Virus record (IMG/VR): IMGVR_UViG_3300045995_000108
Coordinates: 51,429 to 115,428 of that record
Strand: one strand, 5' to 3'
Length of the DNA stretch: 64,000 nucleotides
Origin: a virus
In this document: piece after piece, positions 14,472 through 32,468 of the stretch
Position numbering within the stretch: position 1 is the stretch's first letter
Layout: every line of letters begins with the position of its first letter
Made by a program: the position numbers and the translations under genes
The notes under the pieces: generated by a model
Database searches by the model: none
What the model saw: the letters and a program-made list of their open reading frames with translations, nothing else
Told to the model about the DNA's origin: nothing

Positions 14472-16763
14472 ATGTCACTACAAACTAATCCAGAGATTGA
14501 TCACATTGTTTCCGAAGCCGTTAATATCGCTAAGGAACACAAACACGAGTACGTAACAGTAGAGCACTTGATGTTCGCTATGTGCAAGTACAAACCATTC
14601 CACAAGTTGCTTGACAATTTCGGCGTAGATGCTGCTGGCATGGTAGCAGAGTTGGACATGTACATTATGGGACTAAGTGATATCACTAAGCCTAATGTAA
14701 ACGAACCAAAGCGTACACATACGCTGGAGCGTGTGTTTAACCGTGCGTTTACGCAGGTGTTATTCTCTGGACGTACACACATTCAGATTATTGACTTGTT
14801 CCTGTCTATTCACGCAGAAGCAAACAGCTATGCACATTACTTCATGGTAAAATACGGCCTGGATCGTCAACGCTTCATCGACTTCTACAGTAAGAACTAC
14901 GCAGAAGAAAAGCAAATCAAGGAACTGTCTGCAGAGAAGGTAGACGAGTTTGTTGAGCAATATTGCGAAAATCTCAGCAAGCAAGCTAAAGCAGGTGAGA
15001 TTGATCCTGTTATTGGTCGAGACTTTGAACTGCACGAAGTTGCAGAAACACTTGCACGTCGCAATAAGAGCAATGTGCTTATGGTTGGCGATCCTGGCGT
15101 AGGTAAGACTGCTATTGCAGAAGGACTTGCACTTAACATTGTAGACGGCAAGGTGCCTGCCTTCTTGAAGGACTACACAGTCTACAGTTTGGACATTGGT
15201 GCATTGCTTGCTGGTTCTAAGTACCGCGGTGAGTTTGAAGAAAAGTTCCAAGACGTTATCAAGGGACTAAAGCTCAAGGGCAAAGCTATTTTGTTCATTG
15301 ACGAAGCACACCAGATGAAGGGTGCTGGTGCTGGGGCGCAATCAAGCGTTGACTTCTCCAACATGATTAAGCCTGCGCTGACCAAGGGCAAGATCAAAGT
15401 TATTGCAAGTACGACATGGGAAGAATACAATACTTCCTTTGAGAAGGATCGTGCACTAATGCGCCGCTTCCATCGTCTGCCTATTGACGAACCAACGATC
15501 GAAGTAAGCAAGGAAATTTTGCGCGGTCTAAAAGAGAAGTTTGAAAAGTTCCACGGTGGTTCAGTTACTGATGATGCAATCATTGCCGCAGTTGAACTAA
15601 GCGCACGTTACCAAGCAGACAAGAAGTTGCCGGACAAGGCTATTGACTTGATCGACATTTCTTGCGCACGTCTAAAGATCATGACAGAAGATTTTGAGGT
15701 CACTCGCTACCACATTGTGGATGCTATCTCGCGTATGACAAAGATTCCCGTAGAGCAGATTGGACAAAGCACAGACGCAAAAGATGCTGCACCAATCCTG
15801 CAGGGGATGGAAGGACGCATTAAGGAAAAGCTGTACGGTCAAGACAAAGCGGTTGAAGCTGTACTTGAACAAGTTTACATTGCACGTTCGGGATTGAAGG
15901 AAGTTGGTAAGCCGATTGGTAGCTTCTTGTTCCTTGGCCCAACAGGCACAGGTAAGACTGAGCTTGCTAAGTTGCTTGCTGACAACTTGGGTATGAAGTT
16001 GCTGCGCTACGATATGGGCGAGTACCAAGAGAAGCACACTGTGGCTAAATTCATTGGCGCGCCTCCTGGATATGTTGGCTTTGACGATGGTGGTGCTGGC
16101 GGTGGTAAGCTGATCAATGACATCCAGAAGAATCCAAACTCTGTATTGTTGTTTGACGAAATTGAAAAGGCTCACCCTGACGTAAGCAATGTATTGTTGA
16201 GCATGATGGACGAAGGTAAAGTTACATCGTCTGGAGACAAGGTTGCTGACTGCCGTAACTGTTACGTTATCCTGACAAGTAACTTGGGTTCCGCTGCATC
16301 CGAACAAAACGCTATTGGCTTTGGCCGTTCGTTTATTAAGGATGGCGAGGATGACAAGGCAGTTAAGGACTTCTTTAAGCCTGAGTTCCGCAATCGTCTT
16401 GATGGCATCATTAAGTTCAAGAAGCTGGACGAGTTGTCTATGCGTCGCATTGTAAGCAAGTTTATCATTGAGCTGAACACGCTGATGGTAGACAAGCAAA
16501 TCAAAGTACGCCTGTCAGAAGCGGCAGTGGACGAGATCATCAAGACTGGATTTGACGCTAAGATGGGCGCACGACCTGTTAAGCGTAAGATCAACGAGAT
16601 CGTTAAGGTCCCATTGTCCAAGAAGATCTTGTTTGAATCTGTACCGCCAAACAGCGTAGTGGTAGTAGACTTCAAGGACGGTAACTATACATTCGACTCG
16701 AATGTTGTATCTAACCTAACTGTACCATCAGTAGATGAGCGCGGATTTATCATATTGGGTTAA
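14472..16763 (+). CDS. clpA: ClpA-type AAA+ unfoldase
   Basis: 763 residues: N-terminal Clp repeat region (1-145); AAA-1 with GDPGVGKT (206-213) and FIDEAH (275-280); AAA-2 with GPTGTGKT (489-496), FDEIEKAHPD (561-570) and FRNRLD (639-644). No coiled-coil middle domain of the ClpB type is present between the AAA domains. An IGFG segment (615-618) stands where ClpA/ClpX have the IGL/IGF loop that docks to ClpP, so it may redirect host ClpP. DnaJ lies immediately upstream; no clpP is seen here. Confidence 0.88.
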   Translation: MSLQTNPEIDHIVSEAVNIAKEHKHEYVTVEHLMFAMCKYKPFHKLLDNFGVDAAGMVAELDMYIMGLSDITKPNVNEPKRTHTLERVFNRAFTQVLFSGRTHIQIIDLFLSIHAEANSYAHYFMVKYGLDRQRFIDFYSKNYAEEKQIKELSAEKVDEFVEQYCENLSKQAKAGEIDPVIGRDFELHEVAETLARRNKSNVLMVGDPGVGKTAIAEGLALNIVDGKVPAFLKDYTVYSLDIGALLAGSKYRGEFEEKFQDVIKGLKLKGKAILFIDEAHQMKGAGAGAQSSVDFSNMIKPALTKGKIKVIASTTWEEYNTSFEKDRALMRRFHRLPIDEPTIEVSKEILRGLKEKFEKFHGGSVTDDAIIAAVELSARYQADKKLPDKAIDLIDISCARLKIMTEDFEVTRYHIVDAISRMTKIPVEQIGQSTDAKDAAPILQGMEGRIKEKLYGQDKAVEAVLEQVYIARSGLKEVGKPIGSFLFLGPTGTGKTELAKLLADNLGMKLLRYDMGEYQEKHTVAKFIGAPPGYVGFDDGGAGGGKLINDIQKNPNSVLLFDEIEKAHPDVSNVLLSMMDEGKVTSSGDKVADCRNCYVILTSNLGSAASEQNAIGFGRSFIKDGEDDKAVKDFFKPEFRNRLDGIIKFKKLDELSMRRIVSKFIIELNTLMVDKQIKVRLSEAAVDEIIKTGFDAKMGARPVKRKINEIVKVPLSKKILFESVPPNSVVVVDFKDGNYTFDSNVVSNLTVPSVDERGFIILG

Positions 16764-19411: not shown

Positions 19412-19436
19412 GTTAACTATATAGCTTAATCCGTGC

Positions 19437-19442
19437 TAAATA
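19437..19442 (+). promoter_or_regulatory. late-promoter-like TAAATA
   Basis: GCTAAATAC, 21 nt before the ATG at 19464. Confidence 0.65.
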
Positions 19443-19463: not shown

Positions 19464-20846
19464 ATGTATATTGCAGAACTATTTCATGGTGGCCCTGAGC
19501 AACCAGAAGAAAAACAAGCTGATTTGGTCGAAACAAGCCAAACTCAGCTTGTCGTACTCTACCCTGGGCGCTTCCAACCTTTCCACTTAGGTCATGCAGA
19601 TGTATTCCGTACATTGCAAGCTAAGTTCGGACGCGATAATGTTTTCATCGCAACATCTAACAAAGCAGACGGCGGCAAAAGCCCCTTCAACTTCACAGAC
19701 AAAGTAACGATCATGCACGCCGCTGGCGTTCCTAGCGATCGTATACTGGAAGTCCAATCCCCATACAAGTTACCTGCACAATTTGACGCTACTACAACCG
19801 TATTAGTTGTTACAGTAGGTGCGCCTGATGCTGAACGCCTGCAAGTAGATGGTGTTAAGAAGGATGGCAACCCAGGTTACTACAAAACATTCAAGAGCTT
19901 AGACGAATGCGTTACTGCTGACAAGCATGGCTATGTAGTCATCGCAGCAGAGCGTCAAAAGGTTATCACATTGAACGGTCAGCAAGTGGATGTATCGCAC
20001 GGTACACCATCTCGTGCTGCCTGGAACTCTGTGCGCAAGGACCCTAAGGGCCGTGCAGAGTATATGAATCAAATGTTTGGTCGTGCTGATCAAGAGCTTG
20101 GTTTAGTATTAGACAAAATCCCAGAATCCGTTCAAGCAACAGAAAGTATAGATATGCAACGCAGAGTACCACCAACTAAAACACAACCAATTCACCCTGA
20201 AGAATTGGATAGCTTAATAACAAGCATTGGACAAAAAGCAAAGCAAGGCCCAATGAAAACAGTGTGGAACCCGCTTACCCGTAAGTACAAGGTAGTGCCA
20301 GAGCATGAGGCTGCATTGGAAGAGGACGATATGGCTCCTATGTCTCGTGAAGAGTACAATCACCGTCGTAAAGCATTGCAGCAAATTCAAATGGACCCAC
20401 AGTTAACTAAAGATCCTACGTTACGCAAAGAGTTGATTAAGAAGATTGCACAGTTAACTATGCAAGCACGTTCTGCAGGTGTATTGCCTGAGTCTGTTCA
20501 CGCTGCACACGTACAAGAAAACAAAATGTACTCTGCAAGAGCTATTGTAGAGACTATCAAATACCTAAAGGAAAGTATGTTGCAGGAAAGCATCAAGTCT
20601 AAGATGGCTGCTGGTGCTTTAGCTGGTGCAATGGCGACTGGGGCCGCAGCATATATGCCAGCATCTGCATACACTCAAAATCACTCTAAGAATCTTGCAC
20701 CTGTGTCACAGTCAGAACGAGATAAGAATAACTATGACGCTCCGTGGACTGCTTATAGCAAAAAGAAAGCTCTTGATAAAGCCAATACCGAGGTAGATGC
20801 AGAGCAACGTAAGAACTACCACAAGCACCCAGTGAGTAAAAAATGA
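19464..20846 (+). CDS. packaged nucleotidyltransferase-like protein
   Basis: 460 residues. It begins MYIAELFHG, resembling the capsid-targeting start of T4 internal proteins, and IAE fits the T4 prohead-protease rule (I/L-x-E). Residues 30-200 are a cytidylyltransferase fold with GRFQPFHLGH (35-44), as in nicotinamide-nucleotide adenylyltransferases and related enzymes; the middle has ATSNKADGGKSPF and SRAAWNSVR. The rest is a helical tail with a hydrophobic MAAGALAGAMATGAAAY segment. It may be injected and act on NAD or nucleotides at infection onset. Similar fused proteins occur in T4-like phages. Confidence 0.65.
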   Translation: MYIAELFHGGPEQPEEKQADLVETSQTQLVVLYPGRFQPFHLGHADVFRTLQAKFGRDNVFIATSNKADGGKSPFNFTDKVTIMHAAGVPSDRILEVQSPYKLPAQFDATTTVLVVTVGAPDAERLQVDGVKKDGNPGYYKTFKSLDECVTADKHGYVVIAAERQKVITLNGQQVDVSHGTPSRAAWNSVRKDPKGRAEYMNQMFGRADQELGLVLDKIPESVQATESIDMQRRVPPTKTQPIHPEELDSLITSIGQKAKQGPMKTVWNPLTRKYKVVPEHEAALEEDDMAPMSREEYNHRRKALQQIQMDPQLTKDPTLRKELIKKIAQLTMQARSAGVLPESVHAAHVQENKMYSARAIVETIKYLKESMLQESIKSKMAAGALAGAMATGAAAYMPASAYTQNHSKNLAPVSQSERDKNNYDAPWTAYSKKKALDKANTEVDAEQRKNYHKHPVSKK

Positions 20847-21133
20847 AAACAGTAAGCATAAGCGTAGATGTATGGTGTGATTACGATGACTTTGTTAAGC
20901 CAGCGTACCGTGTCTACGTAAATTCGGATATGTTGACAGAGCGCTCATTCATTTGGAAGAGTGCATCGCAGTATATCCGTGAGCATATTGAAGTGAACCT
21001 ATCACCAGGCACACATCATATAACCATAGAAAACTTAACGCCAGAGATGGCAGCGTATCGTATTGAGAATGTGCAAGTGGACGGCGTTACTGTAGCTGCA
21101 ACTTCGCCAACCATTGCAATCTTTACAGTATAA
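20843..21133 (+). CDS. small beta-rich protein (96 aa)
   Basis: ATGA overlap with the previous gene. Strand-rich with an aromatic, acidic N-terminus (VSISVDVWCDYDDF), LSPGTHHITIEN and ENVQVDGVTV; it looks like the beta-sandwich of the gene at 18926 cut to one sheet. Possible decoration or carbohydrate-binding role. Confidence 0.45.
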   Translation: MKTVSISVDVWCDYDDFVKPAYRVYVNSDMLTERSFIWKSASQYIREHIEVNLSPGTHHITIENLTPEMAAYRIENVQVDGVTVAATSPTIAIFTV

Positions 21134-21136
21134 ATA
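21129..21136 (+). promoter_or_regulatory. full TATAAATA late-promoter match
   Basis: TATAAATA is identical to the T4 late-promoter consensus and lies 20 nt before the ATG at 21157. Confidence 0.75.
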
Positions 21137-21156
21137 TACAAAGACCCGGAATTAAC

Positions 21157-23163
21157 ATGAAAACAACTGAATTTATCGTAGAATACGCTGGCATCGGCGA
21201 CGATGCAGACGCAATGAGCAGTGACCATGAAGTGCAACTAGCCAGACAACAATGCTATAATGCTGCTCGTGATGCTATTGCATTGCACCACATACTCAAA
21301 GATACACCTGAGCAAGAAAATCTTGAAGATTGGGTTGTTGAAAAACTAACACAAGCTGCTTCTAACTTAAAGGATGTTATTGAACACTTAGAAGAGCAAC
21401 GTAACGGCGGCGATGGCGAAGAAATGGACATCATGTCTGCGTTTAGCTTTGAAAGCGCAGAGGCAAAGTATGCAGAGTTATTAAGCGAGTCCGAACAGAT
21501 TGATGAATTGTTAAAAATGTCTCCTGCGCAGGCAGACATGGGAGAAAGAATCAGCACGTTAAACAAAGCTTATATTTCTGCAAGGAATTTAAACGACTTG
21601 GTAACAATGCGAAAAATTAAAGCTCAATTGAGTCAATTAGCTGCGCGAAAAGCATCAATGGCGCCAATTGGCGAAGAGCAAGTTAACGAACTGTATGCAG
21701 ACCGTGCAGCAGAAAACGAATGGCATCAACAAGAACGTCCACGTGGACAAGTAGTTGGTGCGCCAGTACAAGCAGCACGCTCGTTCTTTATAGTGGACCG
21801 TGCGACAGGTAAAAAGCTAAAAGCATTCAATGTTCGCTCCGAAGCTGAACGTGCTGCGGCTCGTATGGGTGGCTTCTCTAAATTTAAAGTTGCTGCTGAA
21901 GGCGAAGAAATTGAGAACGATGCTGACCCTATTACAGAATTAAAATTGAAGCCTGAGTTTGCGGGCGATTCAGGTGAAGGTATTGATATGCCAGCACGTA
22001 AGCCAGTTGCTGCAACTCCTGGTGTTAAGGTTACTAAGGTTGGTACAGATACATATCGCGTGTCGTATAAAGGCAAGTCAATTGAATGCTCGCGTCGTGA
22101 AGTACCACATTACAAGCAAGAGATCATGGGCGAAGGTCAAGTTAACGAGTTAGACTCTTCCACTATGAAGTCGTATATGCAGAAGCGTAAAGAATCACCT
22201 ATGCCAAAGACAGTGCACAAGGCAGTTAACCAAGCTAACGGTGTACGCTCTGCAAGCGAGAAGATCCACGATCAGTTAGTTAAGAAGCATGCCATTGCCG
22301 GTGGCGATACTCGCGTTCGCGAAGAGAAAGATGTCCCTGGCTACGCTGATTGGCACAATGCTCGTCAAGACAAGAAGGATAAGGCAGCAGCTAACCGTAA
22401 GAACACTAAGGATGCACAAGCAGCTAAGATTGATATGGCTAAGAAGCCAGTTAAAGAAGCATTTAAGGAAGTGCCTACACACGGTAAGACAGGTAAGCCA
22501 AATGCTAACCATCCTAACTTTGCTAAACACGATGCAGACTTTAAGGCGCAACAAAAAGCAATGCGTCCACCAGCACAACCTAAGCTAACATTGAACGATG
22601 TATGGCGCCAAGTTGAGCATGTCATTGGTCAAATCTTCCCAGACGGCGACCCTATTGACTGGATGGGTCCATGGTTGCAAAAGCGTGGCTATAAAGATTT
22701 CCAAGTTGGTGACATCATCAACCGTGCTGCCCGCGCAAACGGTTACAAAGACATGTATGCTTACTACGATGAGTTGAAGCAACAACATGCAGACGATCAA
22801 GCTTACGATGCACAAATGGGCGAGTCCGAACAAGTTGACGAACTAAGCTCTGCTACGTTAAAATCGTATGTGCCTAAGGCTAACCGTTCCCGTGAAAAGG
22901 CAACTGATGATATGCGCAAGCAAGGCGGATACGATGCCAAGGTAGACGACAAGATGGGTCGCCGTGCTGAGTTTACAATGAAGGCTGCTAACAAGCTTAA
23001 CCAACCAGTTAAAGAAGATGCGTCCGCTGGTGGCACAAGCGTAGGTGGCATTGCTACTGGAATCGCTGGTGCTAAAGGTGGTAAGCCAGGTACAGGTAAG
23101 CCAAAAGAATTAGGTAACAAAGTATCCCGCAAGCAAGTGCAAGTGGGCAAGGGAGTATATTAA
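21157..23163 (+). CDS. large internal-head-type protein with repeats
   Basis: 668 residues. The first nine residues (MKTTEFIVE) closely resemble the T4 capsid-targeting sequence MKTYQEFIAE, with IVE a gp21-type cleavage site. Short repeats E-x-Q-V/I-D/N-E-L occur four times, about residues 112, 176, 328 and 554; two are followed by a TxKSYxxKR/KA segment. The middle is helical, charged and lysine-rich; the C-terminus (GGKPGTGK, KVSRKQVQVGKG) is basic. This fits a capsid-packaged DNA-associated or injected protein. Late promoter upstream; TAATG coupling to the next gene. Confidence 0.6.
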   Translation: MKTTEFIVEYAGIGDDADAMSSDHEVQLARQQCYNAARDAIALHHILKDTPEQENLEDWVVEKLTQAASNLKDVIEHLEEQRNGGDGEEMDIMSAFSFESAEAKYAELLSESEQIDELLKMSPAQADMGERISTLNKAYISARNLNDLVTMRKIKAQLSQLAARKASMAPIGEEQVNELYADRAAENEWHQQERPRGQVVGAPVQAARSFFIVDRATGKKLKAFNVRSEAERAAARMGGFSKFKVAAEGEEIENDADPITELKLKPEFAGDSGEGIDMPARKPVAATPGVKVTKVGTDTYRVSYKGKSIECSRREVPHYKQEIMGEGQVNELDSSTMKSYMQKRKESPMPKTVHKAVNQANGVRSASEKIHDQLVKKHAIAGGDTRVREEKDVPGYADWHNARQDKKDKAAANRKNTKDAQAAKIDMAKKPVKEAFKEVPTHGKTGKPNANHPNFAKHDADFKAQQKAMRPPAQPKLTLNDVWRQVEHVIGQIFPDGDPIDWMGPWLQKRGYKDFQVGDIINRAARANGYKDMYAYYDELKQQHADDQAYDAQMGESEQVDELSSATLKSYVPKANRSREKATDDMRKQGGYDAKVDDKMGRRAEFTMKAANKLNQPVKEDASAGGTSVGGIATGIAGAKGGKPGTGKPKELGNKVSRKQVQVGKGVY

Positions 23164-25325
23164 TGGCTGATTTACGCAAGCTCATTGCGAGCATGGACAA
23201 AATGAACGAAAGCATTGCGCCAGTCGCTAAGACTGTTATTGCAGAAGGCTCCATGCTTAAAGCATTGAACATGGTAACCAAGTCTGTCGCTCCCGCTGCT
23301 GAGTTAGCTAAAGAGTTTAAGATGTTTAAGGAAGGTTATTGGGACCAAGCAATGGCCAATGTTGAAAAAGCCCGTAAAGAACGTGCCGGCAAGCCATTCG
23401 AGAAGAACCCTGCATCCCACGACGCAAACGGTGTATACAAGGGTGACAAGGACTTAGCTGGGCGCATTGCAAAGTTACCAAAAGGTGGATTCTCTGACGA
23501 GGCACATCCTATTGTTGACGAAAGCGCAGGCGAACCAAGCGTAGATGACATCTTGTATTACTTGACAAGTGCATACCGTCACTTGCAACAATACGCTGAC
23601 CAGTATCAAGACTTCAGCGTTATCTCTCGCGTTTACGACAACTTGCGCTATGACTTAAAAGCTGGAGACTATAATGCATTCCAAACTACTTACGAGCAAT
23701 GCCTAAATAAGTACCCAGATGCTTCTGTTGAGTTGTTTGATGCAATGTTCGTTGAAGCTGGCTTACCAGAAGAGCAAGGCACTATTGAGCAGTTCATTGA
23801 GAAGTGCAGCGGTATGAATGAAGGCATTGGCGATACAATCAAGCGTGGAGTAAAGCAAGTCAAGCGTGGTATGCAAGGTTGGGGTGGTGCTCATGGTAAG
23901 CCTGGTGAGATTGTCAAGCGTAACAAAGGTCACGATGACAAAACAATTAAGAACTTAGATCTTAAGGGCAAAATATACAAGGATGTTGATGGTCCAGCAC
24001 CTGCACACAGCCCACAAGCATTGCAAAATCGCGTAGTTGACCGTGAAATGAAAAAGCGCGGCTTAGGTGAAGAAGAGCATAAGTTTGGTCACGAGTTTGC
24101 GGCATTTAAAAACCAATTAGAAAAGAAGCACGGGCCAGGGAACGTAAAGTATCAAGGCGACGGAAATGTTACTGATGCATACCATGTGAAAACAGGAAAG
24201 CACTTAGGCTTCATTGACGGGCAACATGCCGAAATAAGCGAAGGCCCTGCTAATGATCGTTTGAAGGCACATGCTGGTGCAATGGTAGACAAGCTTAAAA
24301 ATGCTGGCAAGAAATTAGTTGCTCCGGTTAAAGATCCTATTCTTGATCAAATGAAGGCTATCACTGACACTGCTAACAAACGAGCACACGATGCGCAGAA
24401 CAAAAAGTATGCACCATCTAAAAAGACAGACGAAGCTATTATTCCAGACGGTCCTAATGACAAATGGGGCAAGGATATGCCTTCTTTTGGTTACAATCCA
24501 GAAGAGGAAAAGAAGGATAGCAAATTCTTTAAACAAGCATTTGCAGCACCTAAGTTCGGCGTATTCCGTCGCGGTGGCGCAATTGGCGACAAAGCACCAC
24601 ACGCTATCAAAACTTTTGATTCAAAAGAAGAAGCGTTGGCTATGTGCAAGCGTTACAACAATTTACTAAGCCCTGGTGAAAAAGAATACTACGGTTTGAA
24701 GTATGTTGTCCGTAATGTCCCTGCGGAAGCAATGGACGAGGCTGATAAGCATTCGTTTGTTGGTAAGATCCAACGTGGGCACGAGCTAAAGAAGAAGGTA
24801 GACTCTACTTACAAGGATATCGGTGCAGCACAGCAAAAGGGCGACCACCCAGAAGCAAGCAAGGCGTTCCGTAAGCACGAGCGTTATGCTAACTTAGAGC
24901 GCCCAGGTACATGGACTAAGGTTAAAGAAGCAATGCCTGCGGCAGTGGCAACAGCGACACAAAAGATGAACCCGGGTGCTGCGGCTCCTGCTCCGGTAGC
25001 TGGTACAAGTTCTCCTTCCGCCCCTGGCGCACCATCAGCACCTAAGGTTCCGGGCAGTGTAGGCGCAGTTGACCCAGCTATCGCTAAAGCACAGCAATCA
25101 GCTTACCAAAAGAACATCGCTAAGTTGGGATTAAAGAATGTCAATGCTGCACAAGCTGGTGTAAGTATGCAGAAGCAAGCAGACGACATGCAAATGAATC
25201 CTACTGACAATACAAACAATGCAAAGATTGCAGGTACATTAGCTAATGTACTTAAAGATCCTGCGGGCGCACAACAACTAAAAACGCTAACTGACAAGTT
25301 TGCTAAAAAGCCAGGAATGCAATAA
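23163..25325 (+). CDS. large basic virion-internal-type protein
   Basis: 720 residues, helical and rich in Lys, Ala, Pro and Gly; the Pro/Ala/Ser-rich stretch near residues 590-640 suggests a linker. Near residue 25 an IAE site fits the prohead-protease rule. TAATG junctions tie it to the internal-head genes on both sides. No catalytic motif is seen. Probably a scaffold-like or packaged head protein; a DNA-condensing role is inference from its charge. Confidence 0.5.
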   Translation: MADLRKLIASMDKMNESIAPVAKTVIAEGSMLKALNMVTKSVAPAAELAKEFKMFKEGYWDQAMANVEKARKERAGKPFEKNPASHDANGVYKGDKDLAGRIAKLPKGGFSDEAHPIVDESAGEPSVDDILYYLTSAYRHLQQYADQYQDFSVISRVYDNLRYDLKAGDYNAFQTTYEQCLNKYPDASVELFDAMFVEAGLPEEQGTIEQFIEKCSGMNEGIGDTIKRGVKQVKRGMQGWGGAHGKPGEIVKRNKGHDDKTIKNLDLKGKIYKDVDGPAPAHSPQALQNRVVDREMKKRGLGEEEHKFGHEFAAFKNQLEKKHGPGNVKYQGDGNVTDAYHVKTGKHLGFIDGQHAEISEGPANDRLKAHAGAMVDKLKNAGKKLVAPVKDPILDQMKAITDTANKRAHDAQNKKYAPSKKTDEAIIPDGPNDKWGKDMPSFGYNPEEEKKDSKFFKQAFAAPKFGVFRRGGAIGDKAPHAIKTFDSKEEALAMCKRYNNLLSPGEKEYYGLKYVVRNVPAEAMDEADKHSFVGKIQRGHELKKKVDSTYKDIGAAQQKGDHPEASKAFRKHERYANLERPGTWTKVKEAMPAAVATATQKMNPGAAAPAPVAGTSSPSAPGAPSAPKVPGSVGAVDPAIAKAQQSAYQKNIAKLGLKNVNAAQAGVSMQKQADDMQMNPTDNTNNAKIAGTLANVLKDPAGAQQLKTLTDKFAKKPGMQ

Positions 25326-26116
25326 TGTTTATAAGCGAGCTATTTGAAGGCAAGGGCGATGTCCCTGCCAACCCAAAACAAAAGCAAGGTCCTGCTGGCC
25401 AGTTTCGTGGCACAGACAAAGCACCTGCTCGCAATAAGTTAGTAGGCGAAGCAACTGGGTTAAAGAAGCGAGTAAAGATTGTTAAGGGACCAGCTGCTGG
25501 TCGCACTGGTTACGTGGGCGAAGTGCATCACGGTCAATTCAAAGGTGCGCCTAAGCAGTTTGTTATCGACCTTGATGGCGGTGGCAACATTATGTGCTCC
25601 AAGGATCAACTACGCTTGATCAAAGATGATATGGGCGAAGCAATGGAGCGTGAGCCACAGTACGCAGATCCTGACTTCGCTAAGCCTATGTTTGAATTTG
25701 GTGATAGCACGGGGTTAAAACCAGGTGCACTCGCAAACCATGGCCTTTTGGGTAATGTCAAAATTTTATCAGTAAAAGGTCACCACGCAGAAGTTTGCTC
25801 TGTGCGTGGTGGAAAGCATTATCACGTAGAGCTATCTAGTTTACGCACTGGACATTTAGACGAAGATACTAATCCGCAAGATGAAATCACTATGGATGTA
25901 CCATTGCTTATTCGTTTGTTAGAGTACGCCAAGGAAGACGCTAAAACAGACATGGATCTGCACAATGTAGCAGAGCGGTTGATCAAGCTAAGTGGACAAG
26001 GTTGTTTGTCTATGGACCAATACGATGCTATCGTTGGTGGTGTAAAAGAAATGGCACCAGGTCGCGAAGCTTATGCTGGCCGTATGCGTGTGCCTGGCTT
26101 TAACTCTAATAGATAA
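25325..26116 (+). CDS. KOW-domain protein with packaging-like N-terminus
   Basis: 263 residues. Starts MFISELFEG, like the neighbouring capsid-targeting N-termini (ISE and LFE both fit I/L-x-E). Residues about 45-100 form a KOW-like strand set (VKIVKGPAAGRTGYVGEV, FVIDLDGGGNIMCSKDQLRLI), a fold found in transcription and ribosome-binding factors. Possibly packaged and acting on host transcription or translation; not shown. TAATG overlaps with both neighbours. Confidence 0.55.
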   Translation: MFISELFEGKGDVPANPKQKQGPAGQFRGTDKAPARNKLVGEATGLKKRVKIVKGPAAGRTGYVGEVHHGQFKGAPKQFVIDLDGGGNIMCSKDQLRLIKDDMGEAMEREPQYADPDFAKPMFEFGDSTGLKPGALANHGLLGNVKILSVKGHHAEVCSVRGGKHYHVELSSLRTGHLDEDTNPQDEITMDVPLLIRLLEYAKEDAKTDMDLHNVAERLIKLSGQGCLSMDQYDAIVGGVKEMAPGREAYAGRMRVPGFNSNR

Positions 26117-26778
26117 TGCGCAAGCAAGAATTCGTCACTGAGTACGAACGCCGCACTGACAACTCTAAGCAAATCTTTGCTCAGCTTGAAGAAGCTGGTT
26201 ATGTATTGCTAGGTGGCGGTCAGGATGCGACAGTATGGGGCAGAGACGAGGGTGAAGTGCTTAAGGTAATCATGCCGTCTGAGAATAAAGAAGCAGCAGA
26301 AGCAAGCTTTATGTTCTTCTTTAAGCTGTGCAAACGTTTGCGCGGCAACCCCCATGTACCTCGCTTTATTGGCGGTGATGAATCATTTGAAATTAACGGA
26401 ACACCGTACATGCAGTTTTCAATGGAAAAGCTAAAACCATTAGAACACAGTAGCATTGCAGAAGCAGCAGTGTGGATAATGAGTGACTTTGCCAATATGG
26501 CTGGAATGAAACTATCCACGCTAGTTAAAGAGGCGCCACGCAATAATTGGTTCGTTGGATATCGTGACAGCAATTCTACCCAAGACACAGGTAAAGAGTT
26601 TGCTGAAGCAATGCAAGATCCCTCTACCTTTGCCTCTTACGACAAGCTATTTAAGACAATGCAATACTTTTACAAAAATGGCAAAGCACAGGGTTTAGGG
26701 TGGGACTTGCATACTGAAAATGTTATGCAACGATCAGACGGCACTGTAGTTATTACTGACCCATATTACACCAGCTAA
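26116..26778 (+). CDS. protein-kinase-fold protein, likely packaged
   Basis: 220 residues. Starts MRKQEFVTEY, similar to the T4 capsid-targeting start. The rest matches a small kinase/aminoglycoside-phosphotransferase fold: glycine-rich loop LGGGQDATVWG (32-42), VAIK-type lysine K50 in EVLKV, catalytic loop GWDLHTENVM (D197, N202) and metal-binding aspartate D215 in VITDPYY. It is shorter than canonical kinases, so the C-lobe is minimal. A virion-delivered kinase would act at once after injection, compare T7 gp0.7, but activity is unproven. Confidence 0.65.
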   Translation: MRKQEFVTEYERRTDNSKQIFAQLEEAGYVLLGGGQDATVWGRDEGEVLKVIMPSENKEAAEASFMFFFKLCKRLRGNPHVPRFIGGDESFEINGTPYMQFSMEKLKPLEHSSIAEAAVWIMSDFANMAGMKLSTLVKEAPRNNWFVGYRDSNSTQDTGKEFAEAMQDPSTFASYDKLFKTMQYFYKNGKAQGLGWDLHTENVMQRSDGTVVITDPYYTS

Positions 26779-27034: not shown

Positions 27035-27328
27035 ATGTCAGATATCGAAGATCAAGACGACGGCGCTGAAGGCGTTCGCACATTTAACGGCGCAGCAAAG
27101 ATTAAGCTCACACAATTATTCAATGATTCCCAAACTACATTGCGAGAAATTGAAGACTTGTCTGGTGGCCTAAACGACACAATCAAAGCTGTCGCGGAAG
27201 AACTTGAGATCAAACCTGGCTTGCTCAAACGTGCAGTGAAGATTGCATTCAAGGCTAAACTTGGTGAGACCAATAAAGACCATGATGAATTAAATACTAT
27301 TCTCGAAACAGTTGGAAAGACACTGTAA
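27035..27328 (+). CDS. dsbA: DsbA-like dsDNA-binding transcription protein
   Basis: 97 residues. AKIKLTQLFND, GLNDTIKAVAEELEIKPGLLKRAVKIAFKA resembles the T4-family DsbA (late-promoter DNA-binding) proteins, which help late transcription. A helix-turn-helix-like pair of helices (residues about 45-75) is predicted. It lies upstream of SpeD and DNA polymerase in one run, and the late TAAATA motif in this window fits such a factor. Confidence 0.6.
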   Translation: MSDIEDQDDGAEGVRTFNGAAKIKLTQLFNDSQTTLREIEDLSGGLNDTIKAVAEELEIKPGLLKRAVKIAFKAKLGETNKDHDELNTILETVGKTL

Positions 27329-27681
27329 TGGCTTACTTTGGGTATCATTTAATGCTGGACTGCTCTGGCTGCAAGGGGATTGATTCCAAAGAAAACATTC
27401 ATGCTTTCATTAAGCAATTGGTTCCCGACATCGACATGCTCGCATACGGTGAACCAATTATTGAATATTTGCTGCCAGGTGACCCGAAGCAAGGCTATAG
27501 TTTGATGCAGCTAATCACTACGTCAAACATTTGCGCTCACTTTATGGAACTGGATGGAACTGCTTACTTCGATATCTTCTCATGCAAAGAGTTTGATGTT
27601 GAGTTGGCCAAACAAATCGTACACCAATACTTTAATCCCGACAAAATGCGGGTCAACTTTTTAACACGAGATGCGTCTTGA
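27328..27681 (+). CDS. speD: S-adenosylmethionine decarboxylase-like (SpeD)
   Basis: 117 residues. The catalytic set of the small bacterial enzyme is present in the right spacing: S66 (self-cleavage, becoming the pyruvoyl group), H71 and C86, in ITTSNICAHFME and YFDIFSCKEFD. Usual ESHLSIH is changed to TSNICAH, so substrate use may differ. SpeD makes decarboxylated SAM for spermidine synthesis; T4-like cyanophages carry a speD-like gene next to similar neighbours. Whether this one is active is inferred from the residues. Confidence 0.75.
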   Translation: MAYFGYHLMLDCSGCKGIDSKENIHAFIKQLVPDIDMLAYGEPIIEYLLPGDPKQGYSLMQLITTSNICAHFMELDGTAYFDIFSCKEFDVELAKQIVHQYFNPDKMRVNFLTRDAS

Positions 27682-30717: not shown

Positions 30718-31662
30718 ATGAAACTTAGTGAACTAGTTGGATTACGTAACCTGTTGAATGAAAGTATCGCACTAGAAGAAGTTAGGGCATCTACTGAAAT
30801 TCTTTTGCAAAGAATTAGCAGTGTGAGTGACACGATAACCAATGCTGAATATGTAGCATCTATTCATCGTATCCGAGATTATTACGGAGAGATACTTACC
30901 CTGGTAGAGAAGCCACCAAAAGAGTTGCACACCATGCTAGACCAAATTGACGCAAAGATCAATAAACTCACTAAGGATTTCCATAAACGTGGATACATTA
31001 TCAACGGGTTCTTTGCAAGCAATTCTACTGACGTAGACGGGGAGCGCAATCTTAGAACTGTGCCAGTTGCGTCTGACATAAAAAAATTGGTTGGCGCCCG
31101 TATAGATATGCACTCGTCTTGGCAGTATCCTGGCCTAGAGATTGGCCCAGGTGACGGCGAGTGGACACCTATGTTAGTGGCATCCGATCCGTTGTACGTA
31201 ATTGACAACCATCAAGAATTTTTAGATGTGACCGCTAATCAATTTCCTGACGACTACCAACGCAGGCTTCGCAAATATGTCATTGACTTCAGAACAAACG
31301 ACATAACAGAATTGCCCAAAAATCAAATTGGGTTTGCGTTTGCTTGGAATGTGTTTAACTTCTTTCCAGAATACGAATTGAGGCACTACTTAACACAGGT
31401 GTTTGCCGCATTACGACCGGGCGGAACATTGTTGTTTAGCTATAACAACTGTGATAACCCTATCCAGGCTGGATTTGCAGAAGAGGGATGGATGTCGTGG
31501 ATGCCACGCACGTTACTTACTTCTGTGTTAACTGATTTGGGTTACACTGATTTTACATTTTTTGAGCCGGCGCTGAACGTATCATTTGTTGAAGTTAAGA
31601 AGCCTGGAGAAAAGACCACAGTCAAAGCCCATCAAGTTTTAGGTGAAATAAAATTTTCATAA
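30718..31662 (+). CDS. SAM-dependent methyltransferase
   Basis: 314 residues. Helical N-terminal ~90 residues, then a class I fold: GLEIGPGDGEW (motif I), the acidic YVIDNHQEFL, FAFAWNVFNFFPEYEL (motif IV) and LRPGGTLLFSYNN (motif V-VI). No DNA-recognition domain is seen; a small-molecule, lipid or protein target is possible. ATG 30718 is one base after the polymerase stop. Confidence 0.7.
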   Translation: MKLSELVGLRNLLNESIALEEVRASTEILLQRISSVSDTITNAEYVASIHRIRDYYGEILTLVEKPPKELHTMLDQIDAKINKLTKDFHKRGYIINGFFASNSTDVDGERNLRTVPVASDIKKLVGARIDMHSSWQYPGLEIGPGDGEWTPMLVASDPLYVIDNHQEFLDVTANQFPDDYQRRLRKYVIDFRTNDITELPKNQIGFAFAWNVFNFFPEYELRHYLTQVFAALRPGGTLLFSYNNCDNPIQAGFAEEGWMSWMPRTLLTSVLTDLGYTDFTFFEPALNVSFVEVKKPGEKTTVKAHQVLGEIKFS

Positions 31663-31665
31663 CAG

Positions 31666-31694
31666 TTGATAAATCTAAATACATCTGTTACAAT
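31666..31694 (+). promoter_or_regulatory. promoter with embedded TAAATA
   Basis: TTGATA (31666-31671), 17-nt spacer, TACAAT (31689-31694). A late-type TAAATAC lies in the spacer (31676-31682). GTTGAT upstream and two ATCAAC copies downstream form inverted repeats, a possible operator. Confidence 0.6.
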
Positions 31695-31727
31695 CAACTA
31701 TCAACACGCATACATCACGGAGAAAAC

Positions 31728-32468
31728 ATGCAAGATCATCTATTAGACATCGTCAAACACGCACTGCCAATCGGAATCGAATTGGTCAAGGTTACTGGAA
31801 CTAAAACTGAAACAACTATTAACAGTATTGCAGAAGACCGTTCTGTAATTGTAGAAGCTAAATTCAAAGCGCCAGTCGCTGAATTCAACGGCGTATTCGG
31901 AATGCCAAATTTGGCAAAGCTGAATACTATTTTGGGCATTCCAGAGTACGCTAAGGAAGCTAAGTTGACAATCCTTACCCGCGATGTTGACGTAGACGGT
32001 ACTACGGTTAAGCTGCCAGCTGGCGTTAACTTCACAAACAAGGCAGGCGACTTCAAGAACGACTATCGCTTCATGGGTAAGGAAGTTGTAGAAGACAAAC
32101 TGAAGGCAGTTAAATTCCGCGGTGTTAAGTGGAACGTAGAGTTTACACCAAGCGTTGCAAGCATTCAGCGTTTGCGCTACCAAGCAGCAGCCAACAACGA
32201 AATTACAACCTTTGTGGCTAAGACAGAAAAGGGCGCTTTGGTGTTCTACTTTGGTGACGCAGCATCCCACGCAGGTAACTTTACGTTCGACAACAATGTT
32301 GCTGGTACACTGTCCAAGGCATGGTCGTGGCCCGTTAACCAAGTTATTGCTATCCTTGCACTCGCAGGTGAGAAAACATTCAAGATCTCCGACGAAGGTG
32401 CTGCAATGATTACAGTTGACAGCGGCTTGATTGAATACAGCTACATCATCCCAGCCCAAACAAAATAA
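31728..32468 (+). CDS. 45: gp45-like sliding clamp
   Basis: 246 residues with the repeated strand-helix pattern of processivity clamps and phrases typical of T4-family gp45 (FNGVFGMPNLAKLNTILGI, GVKWNVEFTPSVASIQRLRYQ, VINQVIAILALAGEKTFKIS-like). A trimeric ring tethering DNA polymerase and, in T4, activating late transcription. AAGGAG-like GGAG lies six bases before the ATG. It follows the polymerase and methyltransferase in the replication block. Confidence 0.7.
   Translation: MQDHLLDIVKHALPIGIELVKVTGTKTETTINSIAEDRSVIVEAKFKAPVAEFNGVFGMPNLAKLNTILGIPEYAKEAKLTILTRDVDVDGTTVKLPAGVNFTNKAGDFKNDYRFMGKEVVEDKLKAVKFRGVKWNVEFTPSVASIQRLRYQAAANNEITTFVAKTEKGALVFYFGDAASHAGNFTFDNNVAGTLSKAWSWPVNQVIAILALAGEKTFKISDEGAAMITVDSGLIEYSYIIPAQTK

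Follow-up and report, generated by a model that had tools for sequence, protein, structure and literature searches.

Bacteriophage T4 uses a capsid-targeting sequence, a short N-terminal label that closes with [IL]-x-E, to load a handful of proteins. T4 Alt, an injected head protein that starts MELITELFDE, is cut by the protease gp21 at ITE-6 and LTE-619 (PMC5694885). Here we analyze a gene cluster at positions 19464-26778 of a 64,000-nucleotide stretch of viral DNA (the window), which spans positions 51429-115428 of the 115,428-base IMG/VR record IMGVR_UViG_3300045995_000108; the record is linear, probably a fragment, and its head genes are not included. An earlier note, made from the letters of the window, likened to T4 capsid-targeting sequences the openings of four neighboring genes: MYIAELF (gene 19464, named here by its start position), MKTTEFIVE (21157), MFISELFE (25325), and MRKQEFVTEY (26116). 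All four open reading frames (ORFs) are confirmed at these positions with ATG starts. We consider it highly probable that the record belongs to a jumbo T4-related phage of bacteria and that this late gene cluster encodes effectors that are targeted to the prohead core, trimmed by a protease, and probably injected. The DNA polymerase of the record is nearest to those of jumbo T4-related phages (Phosso, 49.5%; Atu_ph07, 45%; GAP32 and CBB, ~42%).

An N-terminal label on unrelated proteins

Each labeled protein bears an N-terminal label of 8-10 residues, M-x(2-4)-[EDQN]-[FLIM]-[FILV]-x(0-2)-E, which in the proposed mechanism would dock it on the prohead core in the manner of the T4 capsid-targeting sequence. 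A gp21-type protease would then strip the label after [ILV]-x-E and the packaged proteins would be injected, with the kinase and the cytidylyltransferase acting on the host early in infection. The label and the class of protein are well supported by the sequence comparisons; core docking, trimming, and injection are modeled on T4. Three of the four named proteins have [IL]xE within the first ten residues (IAE-5; IVE-9; ISE-5 and LFE-8), while the kinase has VTE-9 instead.

Related IMG/VR records and stretches (G003, G004, and L-numbered loci; the present record is G000) were used for comparison. Single-protein IMG/VR scans with the kinase and with the 720-residue product of gene 23163 returned the identical contig as the sole match, and alignments were needed instead; tblastn of the 668- and 720-residue proteins against GenBank phages gave zero matches, as did a PDB sequence search. 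The C-terminal domain encoded by gene 25325 (VPLLIRLLEYAKEDAKTDMDLH), used as a probe, retrieved hundreds of contigs, several of them syntenic with the window (L019, L020, L039, L033, L077, and L050).

A tighter pattern, M.{2,4}[EDQN][FLIM][FILVM].{0,2}E, was counted at N termini and at internal methionines; as it was shaped on T4, the window, and the first relatives, controls matter. It occurs at 4/174 N termini versus 2/758 internal methionines in G000 (p=0.013), 12/453 versus 12/1829 in G003 (p=8.5e-4), and 17/396 versus 7/1751 in G004 (p=2.4e-8). The T4 control returns 13/251 ORFs, including ipII, ipIII, alt, genes 21, 22, and 24, and gene 2 (the DNA-end protector). Across the 62 IMG/VR loci of scan A2, whose search pattern included part of the label, the label stands on 142/712 distinct N termini versus 27/4300 internal methionines (odds ratio 39, p=5e-97); 73 of the 142 lie outside the two seed families.

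The label persists while the bodies change. A total of 255 labeled proteins fall into 46 body clusters, a count in which shared modules chain many bodies into a single cluster and some singletons may be chance matches. In syntenic relatives the cytidylyltransferase opens MFIAEMF, MFISELF, or MFLTEIF, the 668-residue protein MKTTDFITE or MKPTDFITE, and the protein at the position of gene 25325, whose C-terminal domain we term KTDMDLH, MFLNQIFEG, MYVLELFNG, or MRVSDIFSE; L050 and L085 have extended rows of additional labeled genes (MRAREFIIEG, MRAIEFIIED, MRFKEILNEV, MRATEFLIER). The kinase scan used internal patterns, and neither it nor the cytidylyltransferase scan had the label in its query. 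Among 65 kinase loci, nearly all stand-alone kinases in divergent phages open with the label, its residues differing (MRINDIIVEAE, MILADFLIEAE, MKINDILREYD, MRQHEFILREAE); in several fused kinases, [LIV]xEAE-like residues take its place. The kinase ortholog on the opposite strand of G003 starts MKINEILTE and aligns from residue 1; a G003 paralog (31324-31923) lacks the label and begins at query residue 15. Of 53 cytidylyltransferase ORFs, 28 distinct ones open M[FYH]xx[ED][LM]F; in 27 of the 28, an [ILV]xE has its glutamate at residue 5 or 8. A linker that varies in length and sequence comes next; unlabeled ones begin directly at the enzyme domain (MKTLVIYPGRFQPFH). In an AlphaFold model of the window kinase (pLDDT 87.7), residues 1-8 are the sole segment predicted below 50. 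The label is thus independent of the body, as the body clusters, the unlabeled homologs, and a body swap between L019 and L039 (below) indicate.

Labeled genes are also associated with late-promoter-like sites (TATAAATA/CTAAATA), from which we predict late transcription, in agreement with the earlier note. The TATAAATA site before gene 21157 is the only plus-strand match in the 115-kb record, and the L033 and L077 orthologs have the same site in the same place. Such sites precede 22 of 30 labeled cytidylyltransferase orthologs and, in the A2 loci, 51/150 labeled (34%) versus 12/569 unlabeled genes (2%; p=3e-27). Because the start codon of 23163 overlaps the stop of 21157, and 25325 and 26116 likewise overlap the preceding stops, the genes from 21157 to 26116 appear to form one operon.

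The gp21 homolog that the earlier note proposed to look for is present in related records (PF03420 in 8/12; gp23, PF07068, in 10/12), G003 and G004 carrying both. In these two, the gp23 propeptide ends LSE/S or LVE/N just before the conserved shell domain (RKQLSE/SATAGG, RKHLVE/NATGG; slashes mark predicted cuts), which would fit the same [ILV]xE specificity. The label also occurs on a small gene located between those for portal and protease in G004, CBB, RaK2, and Atu_ph07. Capsid targeting, as suggested in the earlier note, is well supported by comparisons that the note did not have: unrelated bodies share a conserved label, certain homologs lack it, and it is linked to late promoters, with gp21 and gp23 in relatives.

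Module borders in the larger proteins

The larger labeled proteins are mosaic in structure, and [ILVM]xE often falls where their modules meet. In L019 and L039, proteins sharing the opening MFLNQIFEG continue with ~70-100 wholly different residues before similarity resumes at WKDTATLLGAP; the swap is bordered by IFE/G and by LPE/S or LSE/G. A cassette bounded by QGVAEG lies in the MKTTDFITE gene of L019 and in the neighboring gene of L039. An ungapped junction analysis across all cluster genes was swamped by trivial indels and was replaced by a test demanding non-homologous flanks. Of 654 clustered, non-independent junctions so defined, 26% have [ILVM]xE no more than 2 residues away, versus 11% of random positions, its frequency peaking at the module border. 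[ILV]xE with a small residue after it reaches 2.0-2.4 times expectation in cluster proteins versus 1.1 in other G003 and G004 proteins, and the 668-residue protein contains 14 [ILV]xE where 8.0 are expected. The residues ahead of one and the same module differ (VAE, VNE, LGE, LKE, INE, MAE) while hydrophobic-x-E is retained.

These features suggest that the cluster proteins are cleavable multi-module cargo. We tentatively propose, with somewhat less than even confidence, that the large labeled proteins are packaged polyproteins: one label would bring several modules, joined in a chain, into the prohead, the maturation protease would cut the [ILV]xE borders to free several small injected effectors, and modules would be traded as cassettes at cut sites between neighboring genes and between phages. 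If so, a phage could alter its injected arsenal by recombination.

Alternative explanations and implications

A competing account of the borders, which does not bear on targeting itself, is that [ILVM]xE inside the large proteins marks recombination hot spots or ordinary acidic linkers and is never cut, the label alone being removed. We judge this a serious possibility, if not quite a probable one. Polyprotein cleavage is argued from sequence, and repeated GVAEG linkers would by themselves promote homologous recombination; the retention of hydrophobic-x-E while the residues that make it up drift is nevertheless as in a protease site, fused kinases have [LIV]xEAE where stand-alone kinases have their label, and gp21 cuts T4 Alt at a second site too, LTE-619 (PMC5694885).

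Several observations weigh against the targeting of labeled, injected effectors to the prohead core. The material searched yielded no virion proteomics for this lineage, and neither gp21 nor a complete gp23 was found in the 115-kb fragment. CBB and RaK2, kin by DNA polymerase, barely use the label, matching the tighter pattern at background level (1.2-1.3%); the CBB virion-protein list (Table 4 of its source) has no bearing on the label, because CBB lacks a label excess. The pattern was partly shaped on T4, the window, and the first relatives, the A2 query contained part of the label, and census counts are phylogenetically non-independent. The kinase, with VTE-9, and 23163, at its start, depart from a strict [IL]xE rule. 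The earlier note had taken the bare [IL]xE in three of four proteins as a sign; the count stands, but the criterion is weak alone, showing no N-terminal excess across the record (13/174 N termini versus 7.7% of internal methionines), and at least three of the six genes of the block having it gives P=0.008, uncorrected for the choice of place. We therefore rejected it as evidence.

That same lack of genome-wide enrichment would be expected if the N-terminal likeness were a feature of translation starts or RNA, or a chance product of amphipathic helices at the N terminus, without any role in sorting. This is very improbable given the odds ratio of 39 obtained with the internal-methionine control, an amino acid pattern that persists as residues change, homologs that lack the label and begin at the enzyme, and the link to late promoters. 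An unlikely but more credible possibility is that the labels direct proteins to the tail, baseplate, or capsid surface, as structural rather than injected components; certain cluster neighbors do resemble fiber or surface proteins, and the head location is deduced by comparison rather than from proteomics. In T4, however, the same pattern selects head-core and injected proteins, the bodies here are enzymes (kinase, cytidylyltransferase, Nudix, amidoligase-like, GH19), and the labeled small gene between portal and protease recurs in G004, CBB, RaK2, and Atu_ph07.

If targeting to the prohead core is correct, a group of jumbo T4-related phages common in environmental metagenomes puts the same label on dozens of unrelated proteins, and the label offers a sequence-only handle for injected effectors (anti-defense, takeover) in unannotated genomes, including families for which no domain is known. 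Should the internal sites be cut as well, prohead maturation would process effector polyproteins, which as far as we found is new for tailed phages and would explain the shuffling of the arsenal. No description of label use on such a scale, or in such modular form, was found in the open-access literature searched.

Cluster contents and relation to known systems

Table 1. Features of the cluster, in window coordinates
Feature	Position	Strand	Remarks
Late-promoter-like site GCTAAATA	19435..19442	+	21 nt upstream of the 19464 ATG
Cytidylyltransferase-like protein, labeled, 460 aa	19464..20846	+	PF01467, E=2e-7; phrog_395
Label MYIAELF (protein start MYIAELFHGG)	19464-19484	+	Predicted cut after IAE-5
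96-aa ORF without label	20843..21133	+	Kept in relatives G003, L019, G004; not part of labeled set
T4-late-promoter-like site TATAAATA	21129..21136	+	20 nt upstream of 21157
Labeled multi-module protein, 668 aa	21157..23163	+	Start MKTTEFIVEY; first ~100 residues and label conserved across 62 loci of IMG/VR
Label MKTTEFIVE	21157-21183	+	Predicted cut after IVE-9
Multi-module protein, 720 aa	23163..25325	+	N terminus MADLRKLIASMDKM; IAE at residues 26-28
Labeled protein, 263 aa	25325..26116	+	Start MFISELFEGK; phrog_26930; C-terminal KTDMDLH domain ~25860-26040
Label MFISELFE	25325-25348	+	ISE-5 and LFE-8
Labeled protein kinase-like protein, 220 aa	26116..26778	+	Start MRKQEFVTEY; phrog_15752, E=5e-11; catalytic K50, D197, N202, D215
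Label MRKQEFVTE	26116-26142	+	VTE-9

The cluster (Table 1) lies between a ClpB-like ATPase gene (14472-16763) and the DNA polymerase gene (28041). A fifth gene, 23163, belongs to the set, its N terminus being related to those of its labeled neighbors; relatives at its position begin MSDMRDLLEKM or similar. The nucleotidyltransferase and the kinase fold assigned in the earlier note are both borne out, the latter by membership of the T7 gp0.7 kinase family, by Foldseek matches of the model to APH/PknB folds (E ~4e-5), and by the invariance of the four catalytic residues across 29 homologs. Its "large repeat protein" proves to be a modular mosaic, not a simple repeat; its KOW protein is unconfirmed (best Pfam match TOBE_2, E=0.095). 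Labeled bodies in relatives include Nudix, GH19, amidoligase-like, and NTP transferase proteins, as well as ADP-ribosyltransferase (ART)-like and metallopeptidase bodies recognized by eye only. The KTDMDLH domain is strongly conserved and occurs, alone or fused to many different N termini, in 347 IMG/VR stretches of environmental phages; its model has three helices, and comparison with PDB folds gave nothing below E=3.

Other recurring arrangements were seen in related material. In the Agrobacterium phage Atu_ph07 (MF403008, 39484-50592; gp83-gp93), tandem proteins start M[RK]W[EDNH]QL[TN]E or similar, many then continuing YRGM and looking ART-like by eye; this resembles a labeled effector row in an isolated phage, in which gp73 and gp199 are labeled as well. 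Placement of this row inside the proteomics cluster CDS 31-76 was rejected, since gp198/gp204 (AUZ94980/AUZ94986) place it at gp83-gp93, outside; it is not counted as evidence. In LR756501, a 735-kb huge phage (L007, 9347-15171), a gene row has another recurring N terminus, L..Y..F..E (e.g., MSTLSHYKNFVNEAG, MENLNDYKQFNENI), possibly a different targeting label; several of these genes lie just upstream of apparent terminase, portal, and protease genes. L087, L032, L047, and others have longer LxE-rich recurring N termini near head genes (e.g., MKQQINEIKRMQELAGL, MTKQQLREAIRKIIRQELNE). Separately, small-gene arrays in G000 (C1:22174-27536, 5' of the window, locus L002) and G003 (C1:190612-213000) share a C-terminal signature, F.F...D..xF.L[KR]W, behind differing heads. 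Two G003 members each contain a different part of the gp23 of that phage (aa 59-83 and 151-210; E ~1e-5 and 2e-7), and the gp23 segment IIMPVMRKLAPGLIAQQIVGVQPMT lies in one G000 member (27132-27536); one guess is that they are decoys for gp23-sensing defense.

Compared with known systems, MKTTEFIVE resembles the T4 IPII/IPIII sequence MKTYQEFIAE, and the same pattern finds both, so the likeness to internal proteins drawn in the earlier note holds for this opening. It does not hold for MYIAELF and MFISELF, which share the layout of MELITELFDE; as Alt is cut at ITE-6, MYIAE/LF and MFISE/LF are Alt-like, and the model is Alt as much as the internal proteins. The bodies behind these two labels, a cytidylyltransferase and a modular protein, are not Alt homologs, and cleavage here is predicted; the PHROG and Pfam comparisons gave no ART domain match in window proteins, so that the likeness is confined to the label rather than extending to Alt-family ADP-ribosyltransferases. 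Whereas the T4 internal proteins are small single proteins, the present cluster consists of large mosaics and enzymes, with many such proteins per genome in relatives. The ejection proteins of SPN3US and phiKZ are likewise inner-head proteins of jumbo phages with N termini trimmed by the prohead protease, as predicted here, but their propeptides are mostly >100 residues and cut at A/S/G-x-E (PMC5694885), as opposed to 8-10 residues and [ILV]xE. Polyvalent proteins, as far as the parts of their description considered here go (Iyer et al. 2017, PMC5512222), are multi-domain effectors that act early and are delivered with the DNA; their domains include kinase, ART, NTase, and peptidase, and they vary in a cassette-like way. 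The mosaic proteins of the window would resemble them if packaged, although most modules here have no Pfam match or named domain; a short T4-type label and [ILV]xE module borders were not found in those parts. The class is known from T4, and what is new is its scale and modular design.
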